From Chrysemys picta bellii (taxonomy: Eukaryota > Chordata > Testudines > Emydidae), in NCBI RefSeq assembly GCF_011386835.1, contig NC_088795.1, positions 106,142,434 to 106,206,433 of the forward strand: a stretch of DNA of 64,000 nucleotides. Reading direction: 5' to 3'. The notes beneath the pieces are model-generated. The model was not told the DNA's origin. It saw only the letters and a list, made by a program, of their open reading frames with translations, and searched no databases. Both the position numbers and the translations under genes were made by a program. Within the stretch, counting starts at the first letter, position 1. Every line of letters starts with the position of its first letter. Shown piece by piece: positions 17,441 to 55,258 of this stretch.

Positions 17441-19819
17441 TGATGCTGGGATTTGTGAAATAGACACTCATTCACACTGTTGTCATCTCCTCCAATTTTA
17501 TCAAGAGTCTTTCCTTAAAACTCTAACTCCTGAAGTAATTTGGTGACGGGAAAATCTCTGCTTTCATTTAAACAAGGTAGTTTTTAGTACTCATGGTTGT
17601 GCAGAAAAGCTGGAAAGTATGAACCCTAAATGCTCAAAAACAAGGAGACAAATGAAGAATACACAAGTTTTTCTTTTTTTTTAATCATAATTTTCAAGCC
17701 ATTCACATGATTTTTGATGACCTGACTCATGGATTTTGAGCATGAAATTAGCCATTTATACATCCTATCTGAAAACTACGGTGTTTCTCAGGAACAAATT
17801 ATAGCATAGCAGAGTTTTCAAGGATTTGCTTCAAGACAGACTGGTATGGAGAAGAAGTCAAAGAGCCAACCCCATGTAGGTGGGACAATGGCTAGAAGAA
17901 GAAGACTCATGCATTTTGAGCACTTGAGGTTTTCAGCAATGGATTCATAAGCACTATATTGTCACCCTCTGCCAACTGGTAGCAGATGTTGGGTTTGAAG
18001 GTTTGTTTCTTGTTAGAAGAGAAAACAGTAACATGGTTTGGATTTTTTTTTATCGCAGTTTGTTTTATTTTCACTGTATAAACCAGTCTTTCAGCAAAGG
18101 TCTCACAAATGGAAAGAAACCTTCTTTCAGGAATCTCAGCCAAAAACACCATTGCCTGATTCCCACAGACAACTCTGCCCCAGCAATTGACTCTATTTAG
18201 ATTAAGGAAAGGTAAACTCCTTCATTGGCTGCCACAGCTACCCCAACAGAAACTGATTTGCAAAAAGTAACAATAGAAGCATTTCTTTAAAACCTGAACA
18301 TAGCTTGCATGCTAATAAAAATAACTTGCAAGACTATGTATAAAGGCATCACCTGATGGCATCCACCATCGCAACACAGAAACACACAGAGTTCCCTTAC
18401 CAGACCATTGTTCCAAATTCTTTGTCTTATTTTTTAATTAGTGACAACTTAACAACATTGAAAATGACAAAGTATAAACTGGCCCCTATATCTGGAAACA
18501 TAGGGGGTGACTTGAAACCACCTCACCTCCATCCACCTCCTATCAGATCCTATGAAGATCTGCATAGCTCAATTGGACTTCTGCCCTAAGAGTTTTCTTC
18601 ATATATTTCTTCAACATATCTTCCCCTACTGGGGAGGTGATGACCTGAGGCTTTACAGGACCAAACCTGTAAACCAAAGTGGCGATATGGTTGCGGGGAA
18701 GGGTGAGCAAAGACCCAAAATGAGAGAGAAATGAAAAATAATAGCACAATATCTTTAAATTATTTGTTAAATGATTTTTTTTGGAATTAATGCAATTGCC
18801 TGTAGCCTCAGTTTTGTATTTTCATATAAGAAGTCGATCCACAAACATGAGAGATCACTACATTTCAACTGTCTGAAAGTAAAACTGCAACTAGATTTAG
18901 TTGGGACACTCTTCATTTAGGGACTCATTTCAATGGAGCTTATTTCAATAGATTTCTTCCATGGCTGTGTATCCCTGAAGACCTCATGGATGCCTTTCCC
19001 ACCATGTGAGCATTACCAAGATTCCTTAGGAGATTTTTTTTTCCTGGAAATGTTGTTTCAGTAAAAAGAGATCAGTGGAGTATACAAGCATAGTTATGCA
19101 TATGAAAAGAGTGAAATTGGAGGAAATACTTTCAAACTTTATATTAAATTTCCATTTCAAATTGGTTAACAAATGAGTCTTGACCTATGACCCTGTCATA
19201 CTTTTTTAATAACACTATAAGTGTATAATATCAATAGCTTGAAACATGTTGTGGGCAAAGACGAGAATGCAAATAATTGGGTTATTAGGCTTTGCTATGC
19301 TAAAAAGGCATGATTATTCATGTGAGGCCCCATGTGATATGCTCATGCTAAGAATCTATTTTTAGTGAATCAGACAAGGCTAAGGGCTTAACCCTAGGTT
19401 ACGAATTATGTCTTATCATTCTGTGTGACAAACAAGTGACCACAGAAGAACAGGTACACCACAAGCTTGCAAAAGTCATCTTGAAATAGAGGAACAGGCT
19501 GGGTACTTCTGCAATATTGTAAGTAGGCTAAGACATCATTGTCATATATGATTTATTAAGAAATTGATTGACATAAATGGTTAAGTCCATGATTGGAAAT
19601 ATAATTATGGACACCTAAAATACCACCTATGGATAATGAGAGGGTACAAATGTTATTATGTTAACAAATCATTGGCAAATATGGTTATGAATCTGAGTAA
19701 TTGCATAAGGAAGAGGTATAAAAGATCTAGCCCATTTCCCTAAAATTTGGGTGCTTTGGGCTCCTGAAATGGTATGAACTGATTTGAGGCATTTTCAGGT
19801 GCTCTACTAACTGTTTTTT
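17441..19819. other. AT-rich DNA, nothing recognised
   Basis: No exon or repeat is supported on either strand. Confidence 0.45.
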
Positions 19820-19918
19820 TCTATCTTTGTTTTCCATTTTGAGGATGCCCACAGCTGCATGCAGTATTCAAGGTGTGGGCATAAGATGGATTTATATTGT
19901 GGCATATTTTCTGTCCTA

Positions 19919-19921
19919 TTA
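19919..19921. repeat. Left target site duplication TTA
   Basis: TTA directly before the transposon end CACTG, matched by TTA at 22472-22474 directly after the other end. Confidence 0.8.
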
Positions 19922-20218
19922 CACTGGTCTACAATTTTTGAGACGTCGTCTGCTCCAGAGATAAAATGTGCTATTTATTATGTATTTTGATGTGCTGAAT
20001 TCAAATATGACAATTAAAACAACGGATTGACTACTGTTTCTAAGATATTTAAACTTTTACATTTTATGTCTACGTATATTGTGTAGATAGTAGAGTTTTA
20101 ATCATAAATTGTAAACCTAGGTCTTTTCATGTGTTTATGGTTGCTTTACATGATACTATTTCACCTGTCCTGTTTATGTAACACTTTAAAAATCAGCAAA
20201 AGGGTTATCTCAATAAAA

Positions 20219-20224
20219 TTTATT
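20219..20224 (-). promoter_or_regulatory. Polyadenylation signal of the transposase gene
   Basis: AATAAA on the minus strand, about 58 bases after the TGA that ends the transposase frame. Confidence 0.6.
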
Positions 20225-20281
20225 ATGAAACAAAAGGCAAAAAACTATTCTGTACATAGTTCAGTCCTATTCAGTGTCTAC

Positions 20282-21961
20282 TCAGCGCTTCTTGGCTTGT
20301 TTCTTGTATTCATTAAATGGAGCATCTCTTGTCACTGTCCAGCAATAGTCTGCAAGCATTGATTGGCTCTATTTGTCCTGATAGCGTTTCTCCATTGTTG
20401 CAATGTCCTGGTGAAATCGCTCGCCGTGCTCGTCGCTCACTGCTCCGCAGTTCGGTGGACAAAAATCTAGATGAGAGTGCAAAAAATGTATCTTTAGTGA
20501 CATGTTGCAACCAAGGCTTTTGTATGCCTTGAGGAGGTTTTCCACCAACAACCTGTAGTTGTCTGCCTTGTTGTTTCCAAGAAAATTTATTGCCACTAAC
20601 TGGAAGGCTTTCCATGCCGTCTTTTCCTGGCCACGCAGTGCATGGTCAAATGCATCATCGTGAAGAAGTTCACGAATCTGAGGTCCAACAAAGACACCTT
20701 CCTTTATCTTAGCTTCACTTAACCTTGGAAATTTTCCACGGAGGTACTTGAAAGCTGCTTGTGTTTTGTCAATGGCCTTGTCAAAGTTCTTCATTAGACC
20801 CAGCTTGATGTGTAAGGGTGGTAACAAAATCTTCTTTGATTCAACAAGTGGTGGATGCTGAACACTTTTCCTCCCAGGCTCCAATGACTGTCGGAGTGGC
20901 CAATCTTTCTTGATGTAGTGGGAATCTCTTGCACGACTATCCCATTCGCAGAGAAAACAGCAGTACTTTGTGTATCCAGTCTGCAGACCAAGCAAGAGAG
21001 CAACAACCTTCAAATCGCCACAAAGCTGCCACTGATGTTGGTCATAGTTTATGCACCTCAAAAGTTGTTTCATGTTGTCATAGGTTTCCTTCATATGGAC
21101 TGCATGACCAACTGGAATTAATGGCAAAACATTGCCATTATGCAGTAAAACAGATTTAAGACTCGTCTTCAATGAATCAATGAACAGTCTCAACTCATCT
21201 GGATCATGAACGATGTTGAGGGCTGCCATCACACCATCGATGTTGTTGCAGGCTACAAGATCACCTTCCATGAAGAAGAATGGGACAAGATCCTTTTCAC
21301 GGTCACGGAACATGGAAACCCTAACATCACCTGCCAGGAGATTCCACTGCTGTAGTCTGGAGCCCAACAGCTCTGCTTTACTCTTGGGTAGTTCCAAATC
21401 CCTGAAAAGGTCATTCAGTTCACCTTGTGTTATGAGCTATGGTTCAGAGGAGGAGGATGGGAGAAAATGTGGGTCCTGTGACATTGATGGTTCAGGACCA
21501 GAAGTTTCATCCTCTTCCTCTTCCTCTTCTGACTCAAGTGAGAATGATTCTGGTGCATCAGGAACCAGCAGTCCTCCTCCGTGGGGTACTGGGCATATAG
21601 CTGATGGAATGTTTGGATAATGCACAGTCCACTTTTTCTTCTTTGACACACCTTTCCCAACTGGAGGCACCATGCAGAAGTAACAATTGCTGGTATGATC
21701 TGTTGGCTCTCTCCAAATCATTGGCACTGCAAAAGGCATAGATTTCCTTTTCCTGTTCAACCACTGGCGAAAATTTGTTGCACAAGTGTTTCAGCATATG
21801 TGTGGGGCCCATCTCTTGTCCTGATCTCCAATTTTGCAGCCAAAATAAAGGTGAAAGGCTTTCTTAACCATAGTGGTTATACTGCGCTTTTTTGATGCAA
21901 AAGTCACTTCACCACAAACATAGCAGAAGTTATCTGCACTGTTCACACAAGTACGAGGCAT
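20282..21961 (-). pseudogene. Transposase-like protein of the CACTG element, three in-frame stops
   Basis: The frame runs from ATG (21959-21961) to TGA (20282-20284), 559 codons in a single reading frame with no frameshift. Three stops interrupt it: TGA at 21791-21793 (codon 57), TAG at 21437-21439 (codon 175) and TAG at 20369-20371 (codon 531). The longest uninterrupted piece is 342 codons from an internal Met (20369-21397). The N-terminus has a Cys-rich finger-like region (CVNSADNFCYVCGE, then GCKIGDQD), followed by a second Cys pair (SNCYFC), an acidic Glu/Ser-rich stretch (about residues 140-160) and a C-terminal domain. That domain has FIDSLKTSLKSVLLHNGN, CGDLKVVALLLGLQ, a Cys pair in KYCCFLCEWDSRARD and DEHGERFHQDIATMEKRY. 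The Cys pair after the GDLK motif resembles the zinc-binding insertion of CMC-type DDE transposases. The acidic residues of FIDS, GDLK and DEHGE are candidate catalytic residues, by inference. From memory, close relatives are annotated as uncharacterised proteins in several animal genomes. Confidence 0.85.
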
Positions 21962-22079
21962 CTCTGCTCACTTTGGCTAAACAGAAATGTTTCCCTTTGC
22001 AAAATCAAACACTGGCAAATAATAGAGCACGACACTGTATGATTTCTAGAGCTGATATAGGGCAATTTGTTCATCAGAG

Positions 22080-22179
22080 TGATGTAAGCTTTGTTATGAT
22101 TGCATCATTCCTAACTTCTAGGAATAACATGATGCAATTCAAATCATGTATGACGCAATACCAGCTTCAGATTGCATCA
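22080..22179. promoter_or_regulatory. Cluster of C/EBP-ATF4-like motifs upstream of the transposase
   Basis: Five motifs lie 119-220 bases upstream of the transposase ATG. They are TGATGTAAG (22080-22088), ATTGCATCA (22099-22107), TGATGCAAT (22130-22138), TGACGCAAT (22151-22159) and ATTGCATCA (22171-22179). ATTGCATCA is the published amino-acid response element of the CHOP promoter, and TGATGNAAN is the C/EBP-ATF composite consensus. Alternatively, they could be subterminal binding sites for the transposase, since CACTA elements are known for subterminal repeats. Function is inference. Confidence 0.55.
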
Positions 22180-22471
22180 TTCATTGTTTTGCCTAAAAAG
22201 CAAGTACTGTCCAAACCCACTCATAGATTTATTCCTAGATCCAGTCAAAGATGTATTTTAGTCATTTCTGGTTTAAATTGAGATCCCTTCCCTTTATAAC
22301 TCACTTATCCTCCGCCATTCCCAAGTCAAGGGTCGTATATACTGACCCAATAGCATATCTTGAAAACTAGAGCCAATCAACAATTTTCAGCATCATTTTC
22401 ATTCTCAGTGACCCAGAATTAGTAAAGTTTGACTATATTTATTTCAGAAGCATTTTGGCTGTAGAGCAGTG

Positions 22472-22474
22472 TTA
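22472..22474. repeat. Right target site duplication TTA
   Basis: It follows the right transposon end and matches TTA at 19919-19921. Confidence 0.8.
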
Positions 22475-23913
22475 TCTATCTCTTTCCTTATGATTCCTAA
22501 TATTCTGTTAGATTTTTTGAGTGCCACTGCACATTGAGCAGATGTATTCTGAGAACTATCCATGACAACTCCAAGATCTCTTTCTTGAGTGGTAACAGTT
22601 AATTTAGACCCTATCATTGTGTATGTATAGTTGGTATTATGTTTTCCAGTGTGCATTACTTTGCATTTAACAACATTGAATTTCATCTGCTATTTTGTTG
22701 TCCAGTCACCCAGTTTGGTGACGTCCCTTTGTAACTATTCACAGTCTGATTTGGACCTAACTAACTTGAGTAATTTTGTGTCTTCTTCAAATGTTGCCAG
22801 TTCACTGTTTACCCCCTATTTCAGATCACCTATGAATATGTTGAATAGCTCAGGTCCCATTATAGATCCTTGGGTAACCTACTTATATACTTCTCTCCAT
22901 TGTGAACACTGACCATTTATTCTGACCCTTTATTCTCTTTTAGCCAGTTACTGTTCCATTAGAGAACCTTCTGTCTTATCCCATGTCTGCTTAGTTTTCT
23001 GAAGAGCCTTTAGTGTGGGATCGAGTTAAAGGTTTTCTGAAAGTCCAAGTAAAGTATATCAACTGCATCACCCTTGTCCAGATGCTTGTTGATATGCTCA
23101 AAGAATTGTAATGAATTAGTGAGTCATGCTTTTCCTTCACAAAAGCCATGTTGATGCTTCCCCAACATATTAGGTCCATCTATGTGTTTGATAATTCTGT
23201 TTTTTACTATAGAGTCATCCATTTCGCCTGGTACTGAAGTTAAGCTTACTGGCCTGTAATTGCCTCTGGAGCCCTTTTTAAAAAAAACAGAATTACATTA
23301 GCTATCCTTTAGTCATCTGATACAGAGGCTCATTTAATCAATAATCTACATACCACATTTGGTGGTTCTGCAATTTCATACTTGAGTTCCTTCAGAACTC
23401 TTGGGTGAATACCATCTGCTCCTGGTAACTTATTAATGTTTAATTTATCAATTTTTCCAAAATCTCCTCTATTGACAATTCAATCTGGGAGAGTTCCTCA
23501 GATTCGTCACCTAAAAAGAATGGCTCAGGTGTGGGAATCTCCATCACATTATCTACTGTGAAGACCAACACACACAATTTGTTTAGTTTTTCCACAATGG
23601 CATTATCTCCTTTGTGTGTTCCTTTAGTACCTTGATGTCTAGTGGCCCCACTGATTATTTGGCAGGCTTCCTGCTTCTGATGGACTTAAAAAAATTGCTG
23701 TTATTTTTTGTGTCTTTGTCTAGTAGCTCTTCAAAGCCTTTTTTGGCCTGCCTAAATATGTTTTTACACTTTACTTGCCAGAGTTTATGCTCCTTTCTAT
23801 TTTCCTCATTAGGCTTTGACTCCCAGTTTTTAAAAGGTGCCTTTTTGCCTCTAAGCACCTCTTTTACTTTGTTGTTTAGTCATGATGGAATTTTTTGTCC
23901 TCCTATGCTTTTA

Positions 23914-43062: not shown

Positions 43063-44546
43063 CTAAATCATCCCAGCCAGGGCTTTGTCAAGCCGGGCCT
43101 TAAAAACCTCCAAGGAAGGAGACTCCACCACCTCCCTAGGTAACGCATTCCAGTGTTTCACCACCCTCCTAATGAAATAGTTTTTCCTGATATCCAACCT
43201 GGACCTCCCCCACTGCAACTTGAGACCATTGCTCCTTGTTCTGTCATCTGCCACCACTGACAACAGCCGAGCTCCATCCTCTTTGGAACCCCCCTTCAGG
43301 TAGTTGAAGGCTGCTATCAAATCCCCCCTCATTCTTCTCTTCTGGAGACTAAACAATCCCAGTTCCCTCAGCCTCTCCTCATAAGTCATGTGCTCCAGAC
43401 CCCTAATCATTTTTGTTGCCCTCCGCTGGACTCTTTCCAATTTTTCCACATCCTTCTTGTAGTGTGGGGCCCAAAACTGGACACAGTATTCCAGATGAGG
43501 CCTCACCAATGTCGAATAAAGGGGAACGATCACGTTCCTCGATCTGCTTTCAATGCCCCTACTTATACAGCCCAAAATGCCGTTAGCCTTCTTGGCAACA
43601 AGAGCACACTGTTGACTCATATCCAGCTTCTCATCCACTGTGACCCCTAGGTCCTTTTCTGCAGAACTGCTACCTAGCCATTCGGTCCCTGGTCTGTAGC
43701 AGTGCATGGGATTCTTCCGTCCTAAGTGCAGGACTCTGCACTTGTCCTTGTTGAACCTCATCAGGTTTTTTTTGTCCCAATCCTCTAATTTGTCTAGGTC
43801 CCTCTGTATCTGATCCCTACCCTCTAGTGTATCTACCACGCCTCCTAGTTTAGTGTCATCTGCAAACTTGCTGAGAATGCAGTCCACACCATCCTCCAGA
43901 TCATTAATAAAGATATTAAACAAAACCGGCCCCAGGACCGACCCTTGGGGCACTCCGCTTGAAACCGGCTGCCAATTAGACATGGAGCCATTGATCACTA
44001 CCCGTTGAGCCCGACGATCTAGCCAGCTTTCTATCCACCTTACAGTCCATTCATCCAGCCCATACTTCTTTAACTTGGCAGCAAGAATACTGTGGGAGAC
44101 CGTATCAAAAGCTTTGCTAAAGTCAAGGAATAACACATCCACTGCTTTCCCCTCATCCACAGAGCCAGTTATCTCATCATAGAAGGCAATTAGGTTAGTC
44201 AGGCACGACTTCCCCTTCGTGAATCCATGCTGACTGTTCCTGATCACTTTCCTCTCCTCTAAATGTTTCATAATTGATTCCTTGAGGACCTGCTCCATGA
44301 TTTTTCCAGGGACTGAGGTGAGGCTGACTGGCCTGTAGTTCCCCGGATCCTCCTTCTTCCCTTTTTTAAAGATGGGCACTACATTAGCCTTTTTCCAGTC
44401 ATCTGGGACCTCCCCCGATCGCCATGAGTTTTCAAAAATAATGGCTAATGGCTCTGCAATCTCACCCACCAACTCCTTTAGCACCCTCAGATGCAGCGCA
44501 TCCGGCCCCATGGACTTGTGCAGGTCCAGTTTTTCTAAATAGTCCC
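43063..44546 (-). pseudogene. CR1 reverse transcriptase, 482+ codons open
   Basis: The open part from the internal Met at 44511 is 482 codons long. It contains the fingers motif [16 protein letters not shown] (residues about 58-73), motif [16 protein letters not shown] (about 129-143) with the first catalytic Asp, [20 protein letters not shown] (about 186-205), and the catalytic FADD box (about 216-219), followed by the CR1 C-terminal region to KALAGMI. Catalytic residues are kept. It is only the C-terminal part of the CR1 second ORF; the N-terminal part continues beyond the LTR at 45741. The frame is the same on both sides, since the inserted 1194 bases are a multiple of three. The cause of death is the LTR, an upstream frameshift and truncation. 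Confidence 0.93.
44542..44546. repeat. Left target duplication of the solo LTR
   Basis: GTCCC, matched by GTCCC at 45736-45740. A preceding A on the left also matches the last LTR base, so 6 bp is possible. Confidence 0.8.
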
Positions 44547-45042
44547 TGTGACGTTGTGCAGTCTATATGGTTTTATAAAAACTTGATAATAAGTCAATAT
44601 AATGTAACTGAGATAGTTTTAGAGAAAATACGGTAATAAGTGAATGTAACGTAACTGGGATATGCCTCATGCAAAAGGTCTCTTGTAAGGTATCATTACA
44701 AAGCTTATAATCTACTGCGTATGATCATCTGATTTGTATAAATGTACCACTCTTGTATCTAAAACTAGAAATATAAAATGTAAATCTAAGGGCCTATTGT
44801 AATTGTGTAAAGTGTGGACCATTAATGATGGTTTGGAATCTTGATGACTCCCATTGTCTGCAGATGGCTGTATTTACCTGTGAGTCTTCCTGTATATGTG
44901 TGTGCTGGCAAGTGAGTAATGAAGTCTTGCAGTGACATGTGATCATGTCACCTGAACTGGAATCCATCTTTAACCTGGTGCTTTTCCAGTGAAGGGGAGA
45001 TGGAAAACCAGAGAGACAAAGAGTTCCCGCCTTATGCAAAAG

Positions 45043-45052
45043 ATATATAAAG
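45043..45052 (+). promoter_or_regulatory. TATA box of the LTR
   Basis: atatataaag lies about 280 bases before the LTR polyadenylation signal, in the same orientation. Confidence 0.65.
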
Positions 45053-45326
45053 GGGGGAAGAGAACAGAGAGGGAGAGGAGCCATCATGAAGAATTCCCTA
45101 GCTACCACCTGAGCTGCAACAAGAGCTGTACCAGGGGAAAGAATTGTGCCCAGGCCTGGAAGATGTCCAGTCTGAGAAAAACTTACTGAAGCATCTCTGA
45201 GGGTGAGATTATCTGTATTTAGTTTGATTAGGCATAGATTTGAGCATTTTTTTTTATTTTGCTTGGTGACTTACTTTGTTCTGTCTGTTACTACTTTGAA
45301 CCACTTAAATCCTACTGTCTGTATTT

Positions 45327-45332
45327 AATAAA
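45327..45332 (+). promoter_or_regulatory. Polyadenylation signal of the LTR
   Basis: aataaa within an A/T-rich context (tatttaataaaatcac). Confidence 0.65.
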
Positions 45333-45740
45333 ATCACTTTTTATTTAGTAATTTACTCAGTATGTATTAATACCTGGGGGAGCAAACAGCTGTGCATATC
45401 TCTCTATCAGTGTTATAGAGGGCGAACAATTTATGAGTTTGCCCTGCATAAGCTTTATGCAGAGTAAAACGGATTTATCTGGGTTTAGACCCCATTGGGA
45501 GTTGGGCATCTGAGTGCTAAAGACAAGCACACTACTGTGAGCTGTTTTCAGGTAAACTTGCAGCTTTGGGACAGGAGATTCAGACCCTGGATCTGTGTCT
45601 GGAGCCAGACGGGAGTGTCTGGCTCAGCAAGACAGGGTGCTGGAGTCCTGAGCTGGCAGGGAAAGCAGAAGCGGGGTAGTCTTTGCACATCGGGTGGCAG
45701 CTCCCAAGGGGGTTTCTGTGATCCAACCCGTCACAGTCCC

Positions 45741-46912
45741 GAACCACTTCTTTCTCCACAGAGGGTTCGTCACCTTCTCCCCATGCTGTACTGCCCAGTG
45801 CAGCAATCTGGGAGCTGACCTTGTGCGTGAAGACAGAGGCAAAAAAATCATTGAGTACATTAGCTTTTTCCACATCCTCGGTCACTAGGTTGCCTCCCTC
45901 ATTCAGTAAGGGGCCCACACTTTCCTTGATTTTCTTCTTGTTGCTAACATACCTGAAGAAACCCTTCTTGTTACTCTTAACATCCCTTGCTAACTGCAAC
46001 TCCAAGTGTGATTTGGCCTTCCTGATTTCACTCCTGCACACCTGAGCAATATTTTTATACTCCTCCCTGGTCATTTGTTCAATCTTCCACTTCTTGTAAG
46101 CTTCTTTTTTGCGTTTAAGATCAGCAAGGATTTCACTGTTTAGCCAACCTGGTCGCCTGCCATATTTACTATTCTTTCTACACATCGGGATGGTTTGTTC
46201 CTGCAACCTCAATAAGGATTCTTTAAAATACAGCCAGCTCTCCTGGACCCCTTTGCCCTTCATGTTATTCTCCCAGGGGATCCTGCCCATTTGTTCCCTG
46301 AGGGAGTCAAAGTCTGCTTTTCTGAAGTCCAGGGTCCATATTCTGCTGCTCTCCTTTCTTCCTTTTGTCAGGATCCTGAACTCGACCATCTCATGGTCAC
46401 TGCCTCCCAGGTTCCCATCCACTTTTGCTTCCCCTACTAGTTCTTCCCTGTTGGTGAGTAGCAGGTCAAGAAAAGCTTTGCCCCTAGTTGGTTCCTCCAG
46501 CACTTGCACCAGGAAATTGTCCCCTACACTTCCCAAAAATTTTCCTGGATTGCCTGTGCACCGTTGTATTGCTCTCCCAGCAGATATCAGGGTGATTAAA
46601 GTCTCCCATGAGAACCAGGGCCTGCGATCTAGCAACTTCTGCTAGTTGCCAGAAGAAAGCCTCGTCCACCTCACCCCCCTGGTCTGGTGGTCTATAGCAG
46701 ACTCCAACCATGACATCACCCTTGTTGCTCACATTTCCCAACTTTATCCAGAGACTCTCAGGTTTTTCTGCAGTTTCATACTGGAACTCTGAGCAGTCAT
46801 ACTCCTCTCTTACATACAACGCAACTTCCCCACCTTTTCTGCCCTGCCTGTCCTTCCTGAACAGTTTATATCCGTCCATGACAGTACTCCAGTCATGTGA
46901 GTTATCCCACCA
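45741..46912 (-). pseudogene. CR1 endonuclease and N-terminal part of the second ORF
   Basis: The minus strand encodes an endonuclease piece (46912 down to about 46540) with GDVMVGVCYRPPDQGG and LMGDFNHPDICWESN, the signature of apurinic-type LINE endonucleases. The linker region follows in a second frame (about 46560-45741): VLEEPTRGKAFLDLLLTN, SDHEMVEF, RRPGWLNSEILADLKRKK and RYVSNKKKIKESVGPLL. The two frames overlap, which indicates a single 1-base indel near 46530-46545. The downstream end (VEKEVVRDC) meets the LTR. Loss of the first 5' part and the frameshift make it a pseudogene. Confidence 0.9.
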
Positions 46913-47373
46913 ATATATTGAATATATTTCATACTGAATCAAAGTATGGTCAAGCAATTAACTATACAATTGATGTATACAATTGTATTCTGTTGTTGAT
47001 AACAACAGAAAGGCAATGAGGGCTATATTGGCACCTAGATAGATAGATGAGTGCCAGCTCCCTGAACTACAATCTGAACACCATATTTAAAGTGTCGTTA
47101 GATGTAAGAGTTGAGCTACAAAGTATCTGAGGACTATCCTATGGCAGCCAAGAAATTCCAAGTCTACCCAGGAGCATTGTCACCTGTGTGGACGTTGAAG
47201 TGACCAAGCACAGCTAGCACCAGCGCCACCCCAGTGCTTTGCAGAGAAGAACCTGGTCAACCTTCTGAAGGTTACTGCAGTGCAGTGGGATGATACATCA
47301 TCATTCCTATCTAAGGACTCATGCAAAATGGACATATTCAATCAGATATATTGTGGAGGCAGAAGATGTCTTA
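46913..47373. other. Intergenic DNA, nothing recognised
   Basis: No gene or clear repeat is supported. Confidence 0.45.
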
Positions 47374-54397: not shown

Positions 54398-55258
54398 CAG
54401 GGCCACCCAGAGGATTCAGGGGGCCTGGGGCAAAGCAATTTCAGGGGCCCCTTCCCTAAAAAAAAGTTGCAATTCTATAGTAACATGTATTTGGAAATGT
54501 AAAAATAACCAGTGAAATACATTCAAAAATTAATTTTTAATAATTTGAAAATACATGAAATACATTATTTAAAAACTTTAAATGCTTTAATGGTATGTAT
54601 ACATTTGCAATTACATAATGGGCTGTCGCTGGGTGATGGTGATGGTTGGTGCCAATGGGCTGTCGCTGCGTGGGGGTGGTACTACTGTTGCCCAGGGCTG
54701 GGTGGGGAGCTGGGCTCTGGGTCGGGGGTTCCCGGCTCAGAGGGTCTGGGCTCGGAGCTAGAGGTCAGGGCTGTGGGGGGCTGGGGTCGGGGGGTGTCCG
54801 GCTCAAAGGGGCTGGGCTCAGAGCTGGGGGTCAGAGCTGGTGGGTATGGGGTCGGGGAGTGCCCAGTACAGAGGGGCTGGGCTCAGAGCTGGGGGTCAGG
54901 GCTGGGGGGAGTGCCCAGCTCAGAGGAGCTTACCATGCCACTTCCCCCGCCTCCTACCTCTCCCAGAGCCCCAGCGAGCTGTGTCCAGGAGCTCCTGCCA
55001 CTCAGCCCACCGGAGCTCGCAGCTCCACCCCCTTACCATGCGGCTCCAAGCAGGAGGACCTCAGGCCCCGCCCGAGCCAAGCCACTGCAGTGCTGTCCAG
55101 GGCCGCTCCTGGACACAGCGCGCTGAGGTGCCGGGGGATGGGGGAAGGCGAAGGAGGAGGCAGGGGGAGCCTTCGACATTCTCGTGGGGACCCCTGAGGG
55201 GCCCGGGGCCTGAGGCAAATTGCCCCACTTGCCCCCCCTACTCACCCGGGTGGCCCTG
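54398..55258. mobile_element. hAT-like MITE, CAGGGCCACCC ends
   Basis: The left end CAGGGCCACCCAGAGGATTC and the right end (reverse complement CAGGGCCACCCGGGTGAGTA) form an inverted repeat, followed on both sides by gggggcctgggg- or ggggggcaagtggg-type sequence. No matching 8-bp duplication is seen (left CCCCAGGA, right TACTAGCA). The interior (about 54700-54930) has 3 to 4 degenerate units of 50-66 bases rich in gggctcagagctgggggtc. Three overlapping GC-rich frames (152-204 codons) are low-complexity artefacts. Confidence 0.75.
54700..54930 (+). repeat. Degenerate minisatellite within the MITE
   Basis: Units start near 54732, 54798, 54862 and 54914 and share ggctgggctcagagctgggg. Confidence 0.65.

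Follow-up and report, generated by a model that had tools for sequence, protein, structure and literature searches.

A dead and very probably Chapaev3-type DNA transposon of high copy number within a LINE of the painted turtle

What kind of element has broken the reverse transcriptase of a CR1-type long interspersed element (LINE) in the 64-kb stretch of painted turtle DNA analysed here (the window), and what has become of its relatives in the genome? The insert is a cut-and-paste DNA transposon located within the LINE, and we put at roughly 0.93 the probability that it belongs to a high-copy painted turtle family of Chapaev3 transposons (CMC group) and is itself a dead copy. The evidence comes from the window itself and from a search of the 2.37-Gb painted turtle assembly, in which the window lies on contig C5.

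Ends of the element and the empty site

The transposon spans 2,550 bp (positions 19922..22471, gene on the minus strand), and 39 other full or nearly full matches in the genome have the same ends. Its terminal inverted repeats are CACTGGTCTACA at the gene-distal end (19922..19933, plus strand; identical in 37 of 39 copies) and CACTGCTCTACA at the gene-proximal end (22460..22471, minus strand; identical in 35 of 39 copies); they are 12 bp long and match at 11 of the 12 positions, with one mismatch. The flanks, read directly and compared with those of other copies, carry a TTA target-site duplication at 19919..19921 (left) and 22472..22474 (right). Ends exact to the base and a 3-bp TTA duplication had both been claimed from the window alone; the claims hold, as the same ends recur in other genome copies and a 3-bp duplication recurs at other loci. 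When both strands of the window were searched with the 12-mer of the terminal repeat, allowing at most one mismatch, only the two ends of the element were found. No terminal symmetry beyond the 12-bp repeats was found in the window copy, a search for subterminal repeats of the element yielded nothing convincing, and an Rfam scan of the window gave no match.

The downstream and upstream parts of the interrupted reverse transcriptase (19813..19921 and 22475..22689, both on the minus strand) were delimited by peptide alignment with CR1. Excising the insert plus one TTA restores the LINE frame (KEID/NRTEN), and the rejoined peptide is identical to the CR1 at 43441-43761 at 45 of 108 positions, the alignment being continuous across the joint. 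This bears out the in-frame empty site and the CR1 parallel put forward in the original prediction. The genome was also searched with the two flanks joined across a single TTA, and the best 40 of 6,323 first-look candidates were scored: the right flank of the window itself accounts for one, and the remaining 39, all LINE loci, span the joint. Eleven of these were aligned; 10 have a single TTA and one (L054) has TTT. Comparison with uninterrupted LINE copies, suggested earlier as a check, therefore reveals the empty site, at paralogous rather than orthologous loci. Ten of the 11 paralogous LINE copies have 3 or 6 additional bases some 17 bases upstream of this point (window about 19902); these bases are unrelated to the transposon.

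Copies elsewhere in the genome and the hallmarks of Chapaev3

Two samples of copies were used. Sample 1 was drawn from 3,554 first-look candidates, of which the best 40 were the window and 39 places (L009-L047) fetched with their flanks; these places are 96-97% identical to the window copy across the full or nearly full element. L024 shares its flanks with L023 and was omitted, so that the duplication, frame, divergence, 53-copy and lamprey counts use 39 distinct loci of this sample, the window among them. This sample holds the copies most like the window copy, and open frames and youth are thus overstated in it. For sample 2 the last 82 bases alone served as seed, and 16 of its 40 scored places were fetched; L062 and L068, which are rearranged or deleted, were left out of the sample-2 divergence, the 53-copy and the lamprey counts, leaving 14 copies. 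The family is high-copy in the painted turtle. Searches with the whole element, the 3' end and the 5' end gave 3,554, 915 and 165 first-look candidates, respectively, which reflects word commonness and not copy number.

An exact 3-bp duplication was present at 33 of the 39 loci (TTA 15, TAA 14, and TTT, TAG, TAT and ATG one each), and a 4-bp duplication at none. When both boundaries were moved outward by 1-3 bases no matches were obtained, and 1-3 matches when they were moved by 4-7 bases; random pairing of left and right flanks (2,000 trials) gave a mean of 13.1 and a maximum of 23 matches, compared with the 33 observed. Both ends were located by exact match in 12 of the 16 sample-2 copies, 10 of which showed an exact 3-bp duplication when read by eye. 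The alignment of many genomic copies, also proposed at the outset, upholds the ends and the length of the duplication. Among the 16 sample-2 copies, L068 is the sole internally deleted one (1,382 bp, with AAA on each side). No family of miniature inverted-repeat transposable elements was seen among these 16, no search aimed at such elements having been made.

PMC4079192 gives as hallmarks of Chapaev3 a TWA duplication (W, A or T), insertion always between A and T, CAC...GTG ends, and the motifs C(2)C, LH and H(4)H. In the turtle family, 29 of the 33 exact duplications are TTA or TAA, the termini of the copies read 5'-CAC ... GTG-3', and the DDE transposase contains the three motifs, all of which the window copy retains. 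The duplication is preceded by A at 23 of 33 loci and followed by T at 27 of 33; the window copy has both.

Transposase gene and its relatives

The transposase gene, 564 codons long in the family and broken in the window, occupies 20267..21961 on the minus strand, with its ATG at 21961 and its natural stop at 20267-20269. The frame comprises a single exon and is open in many of the copies closest in sequence to that of the window. A TATAAA upstream of the gene (22293..22298, minus strand; same in 48 of 53 copies) may serve as promoter, and an AATAAA about 40 bases past the natural stop (20219..20224, minus strand; same in 42 of 53 copies) as polyadenylation signal.

A protein search returned 3,830 relatives of the transposase at E up to 0.001, of which the best 120 (P0001-P0120) were examined. 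The ordered motif D-D-18-C(2)C-LH-H(4)H-E, written from the metagenome protein P0001, was found in 114 of these 120 and in none of 120 shuffled sequences. In P0001 numbering, and with all window positions on the minus strand, D232 (21176..21178; D in 55 of 56 aligned rows and a gap in the other; kept in the window) is the likely first catalytic Asp, and D286 (21014..21016; D in 55 of 56 rows), which has the D-18-C(2)C spacing of turtle RAG1, the likely second. Alignment and motif pattern place the C(2)C motif at C305/C308 (20948..20959) and the LH motif at L353-H354 (20810..20815), both kept in the window. H(4)H corresponds to H462/H467 (20471..20488; each H in 53 of 56 rows; kept in the window), H482/H487 being a second match to this pattern. 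From the motif order, E484 (20420..20422; E in 53 of 56 rows) is the likely catalytic Glu, with E481 or E494 as possible candidates.

Named relatives among the matches listed are from insects, leech, frog and lamprey; the Helobdella protein P0065 is 65% identical, and its species belongs to the published Chapaev3 tree. None of the best 120 has a precomputed Pfam domain. Searches of viral contigs and of prokaryote genome contigs confirmed no relatives, BFVD gave no match at E up to 0.001, and a PDB sequence search with A1 returned only two chance-like matches (E 1.3 and 2.3). Many of P0001-P0120 are encoded on contigs of 2.0-2.9 kb, which is close to the size of a single transposon.

Decay and divergence of the copies

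The window copy is dead, its transposase gene being broken by four premature stops on the minus strand. Three of them, at 21791..21793 (TGC in 50 of 53 copies), 21437..21439 (CAC in 48 of 53) and 20369..20371 (TGG in 49 of 53), occur in one or two of the 53 copies each, window counted; the fourth, at 20282..20284, lies five codons ahead of the natural stop and is shared by five of 53 copies, window included. An open frame of at least 564 residues was present in 17 of the 39 sample-1 copies. Across these 39 copies, 439 nonsynonymous, 152 synonymous and 24 stop changes were observed, where the spectrum of noncoding changes predicts 430, 152 and 31; the counts fit decay without selection on the protein.

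The mean Kimura two-parameter distance to the majority sequence was 1.2% for sample 1 and 1.7% for the 14 copies of sample 2. The pairwise difference in sample 2 (3.3%) is about twice the distance to the centre, i.e. star-like. The 39 copies of sample 1 carry 907 variants, of which 755 are confined to a single copy, 119 are found in two or three copies and 33 in at least four. This divergence would be read most simply as one main burst that stemmed from a small number of masters.

A lamprey relative and horizontal transfer

The closest named non-turtle relative among the matches listed is P0012 of the lamprey Lethenteron reissneri (86% identity over 85% of the query), which is encoded on a 13.8 Mb contig. 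It is 78-81% identical to five turtle copies across 472 residues, and its in-frame pieces agree with copy L035 at 85 of 100 aligned positions in one case and 282 of 321 in the other. Residues 109-142 of P0012 are in a different frame, and up to 31 of these 34 residues (median 30, 53 copies) equal a frame of the turtle element other than that of the transposase. The off-frame match was found in 51 of 52 judgeable copies, and shuffled letters gave at most 10 of 34. Protein constraint cannot explain such a match, and the lamprey and turtle DNA itself must therefore be close. A tree built from 28 of the best 120 relatives plus the window piece (29 rows) groups lamprey and turtle with 100/98 support.

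Lampreys and jawed fishes separated some 500 million years ago (PMC4079192), and with lineages so long apart horizontal transfer is likely: the family probably reached turtles from some source that also reached lampreys. Descent from a lamprey-turtle common ancestor, with the family staying similar ever since, would fit the thousands of transposase relatives, spread over insects, leech, frog and lamprey; it is very improbable, as turtle copies change without protein constraint, the lamprey protein matches the turtle element outside the transposase frame, and the frog relative falls elsewhere in the tree. Horizontal transfer of another transposon, hAT-6_XT, has been described in turtles (PMC11008031).

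We consider it reasonably probable, though well short of the confidence placed in the family assignment, that an invasion by transfer from the lamprey-shared source was followed by a burst with complete frames kept in some copies, so that a RAG1-like transposon may have been mobile recently, or may be so even now, in a RAG1-using vertebrate. Three observations speak against this history. The full frame was present in none of the 14 sample-2 copies, the longest being 555; 152 of the 907 variants are common to at least two copies, so that the star is imperfect and some substructure or recurrent change is present; and the lamprey side of the comparison consists of one protein and no lamprey DNA.

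Family assignment and predicted fold

EnSpm/CACTA elements have CACT(A/G) ends and a 2-4 bp duplication. The turtle element has both (CACTG, 3 bp), and the original prediction assigned it to EnSpm/CACTA for these traits. They are not decisive, because Chapaev has them too: EnSpm/CACTA, Mirage and Chapaev are united in the CMC group, and EnSpm/CACTA and Chapaev share CAC...GTG ends (PMC4079192). The assignment was thus right for the group and the ends and is, on the present evidence, wrong at the level of the family. Most of the duplications are TWA, the motifs are those described for Chapaev, and a Pfam scan of 56 relatives found no transposase family at E up to 1, nor did a scan of four of them at E up to 10. 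Chapaev3 is preferred over EnSpm on the TWA duplication, the A/T preference, the ordered motifs and the lack of a Pfam transposase match. A strict EnSpm/CACTA element, set apart here by duplication, motifs and protein Pfam scan and not by direct comparison with an EnSpm profile, is very improbable.

In a Foldseek search, the folds closest to the predicted model were those of RAG1 and Transib, and the transposase would thus have a RAG1/Transib-type fold. Pfam and NCBIfam gave nothing usable for the transposase. The N-terminal region has conserved cysteine pairs and only weak Pfam matches (zf-AD in 4 of 56 members, best E 0.0017; RAG1_imp_bd in 1 of 56, E 0.54). This region may be the Chapa domain, the N-terminal zinc domain described for Chapaev3. 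For PF12940 (RAG1) a single genome match was reported, the RAG1 gene itself (L076, a single open frame on C4); the element copies thus do not match this profile. Transib elements make a 5-bp target duplication. A Transib-superfamily element close to RAG1, and not Chapaev, would suit the predicted fold and the treatment of Chapaev3 as a clade of the Transib superfamily by Kapitonov and Koonin, and is the least probable reading of all, given duplications of exactly 3 bp and copies without a PF12940 match.

The assignment to Chapaev3 has points against it as well. Six of the 39 loci lack an exact 3-bp duplication, the A/T flanks are a preference here as against the 'always' of PMC4079192, and the assignment was made by published description, not by sequence comparison with labelled Chapaev3 proteins. 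As to the fold, the structure model is that of the metagenome protein P0001 (510 of 534 residues match the window's broken gene), the TM-scores (template modelling) were at most 0.49, and hhalign against RAG1 was not significant (P 0.041 for a chance-like 12-column match, and P 0.12 for the N-terminal cysteine region against residues 216-282 of the translated RAG1 frame).

RAG1 and Transib leave hairpins on the host side. A DDE transposase with a fold of this type would pair the two CAC ends of the element and then excise it, probably leaving host-side hairpins; the 3' ends would be joined to the target with a 3-base stagger, which repair would convert into the duplication.

As far as found, this is a new Chapaev3 family of a known kind, for which a Repbase name may well exist. 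Besides correcting the class from EnSpm/CACTA, the analysis defines a vertebrate Chapaev3 family to the base, and many of its best copies have open transposase frames; with these, the mechanism of a RAG1-like transposase could be tested outside the line of Transib. If the transfer is true, turtles become a further host group for which horizontal transfer of Chapaev3 is likely, and one linked to lampreys. The original prediction also held the group to be poorly documented in reptiles. This is correct for turtles to the extent that a search by title and start of abstract, with most subscription journals and supplements outside its scope, found no report of Chapaev; it does not apply to Anolis, for which Chapaev (Conan) has been published. 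The text of PMC11008031 does not mention Chapaev or CMC, and PMC7070016 does not mention Chapaev, CMC, EnSpm, CACTA or turtle.

Other features of the window

A larger CR1-type LINE, identified by eye, lies at 43063-46957 (minus strand), with a reverse transcriptase frame at 43063-44562 and LINE-like frames at 45580-46957; it is broken between these frames. A G-rich tandem repeat with 65- and 52-bp units is present at 54719-54930.

Comparison with known systems

CAC stands at recombination signal sequences and Transib ends, as at the ends of the turtle element. The transposase further resembles RAG1 and HzTransib in its predicted fold, in the D-18-C(2)C spacing and in the order in which LH and H(4)H follow. 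It differs in that no significant profile match was obtained, the element has a 3-bp duplication and a single gene, and the gap between the first two Asp is larger in RAG1. EnSpm/CACTA shares the CACT ends, the 3-bp duplication and the CMC group, whereas the turtle element has a TWA target and no Pfam transposase match.

Within Chapaev3, Garfield of silkworm and bracovirus encodes 556 residues with the same three motifs but is 2,289 bp long, has two exons and is found in insect hosts (PMC4079192). Merrow (Chapaev3-1_PM) has a TWA duplication and CAC...GTG ends and is found in lampreys, the group also involved here; it measures 2,451-2,455 bp and is given two exons (78 + 484 residues), according to PMC4079192, whereas in the turtle a single open frame encodes 564 residues. 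Merrow was compared with the turtle family and P0012 by description only, and these may or may not be Merrow. Conan (Chapaev3-1_ET, Chapaev3-3N1_AC) of tenrec and Anolis is likewise an amniote Chapaev3, horizontally transferred according to PMC4079192 and present in no other reptile genome then available. Chapaev has been called extinct in Anolis. Most lizard copies of Conan are 80-90% identical to their consensus (PMC4079192), whereas those of the turtle family differ from their majority sequence by about 1.7%.
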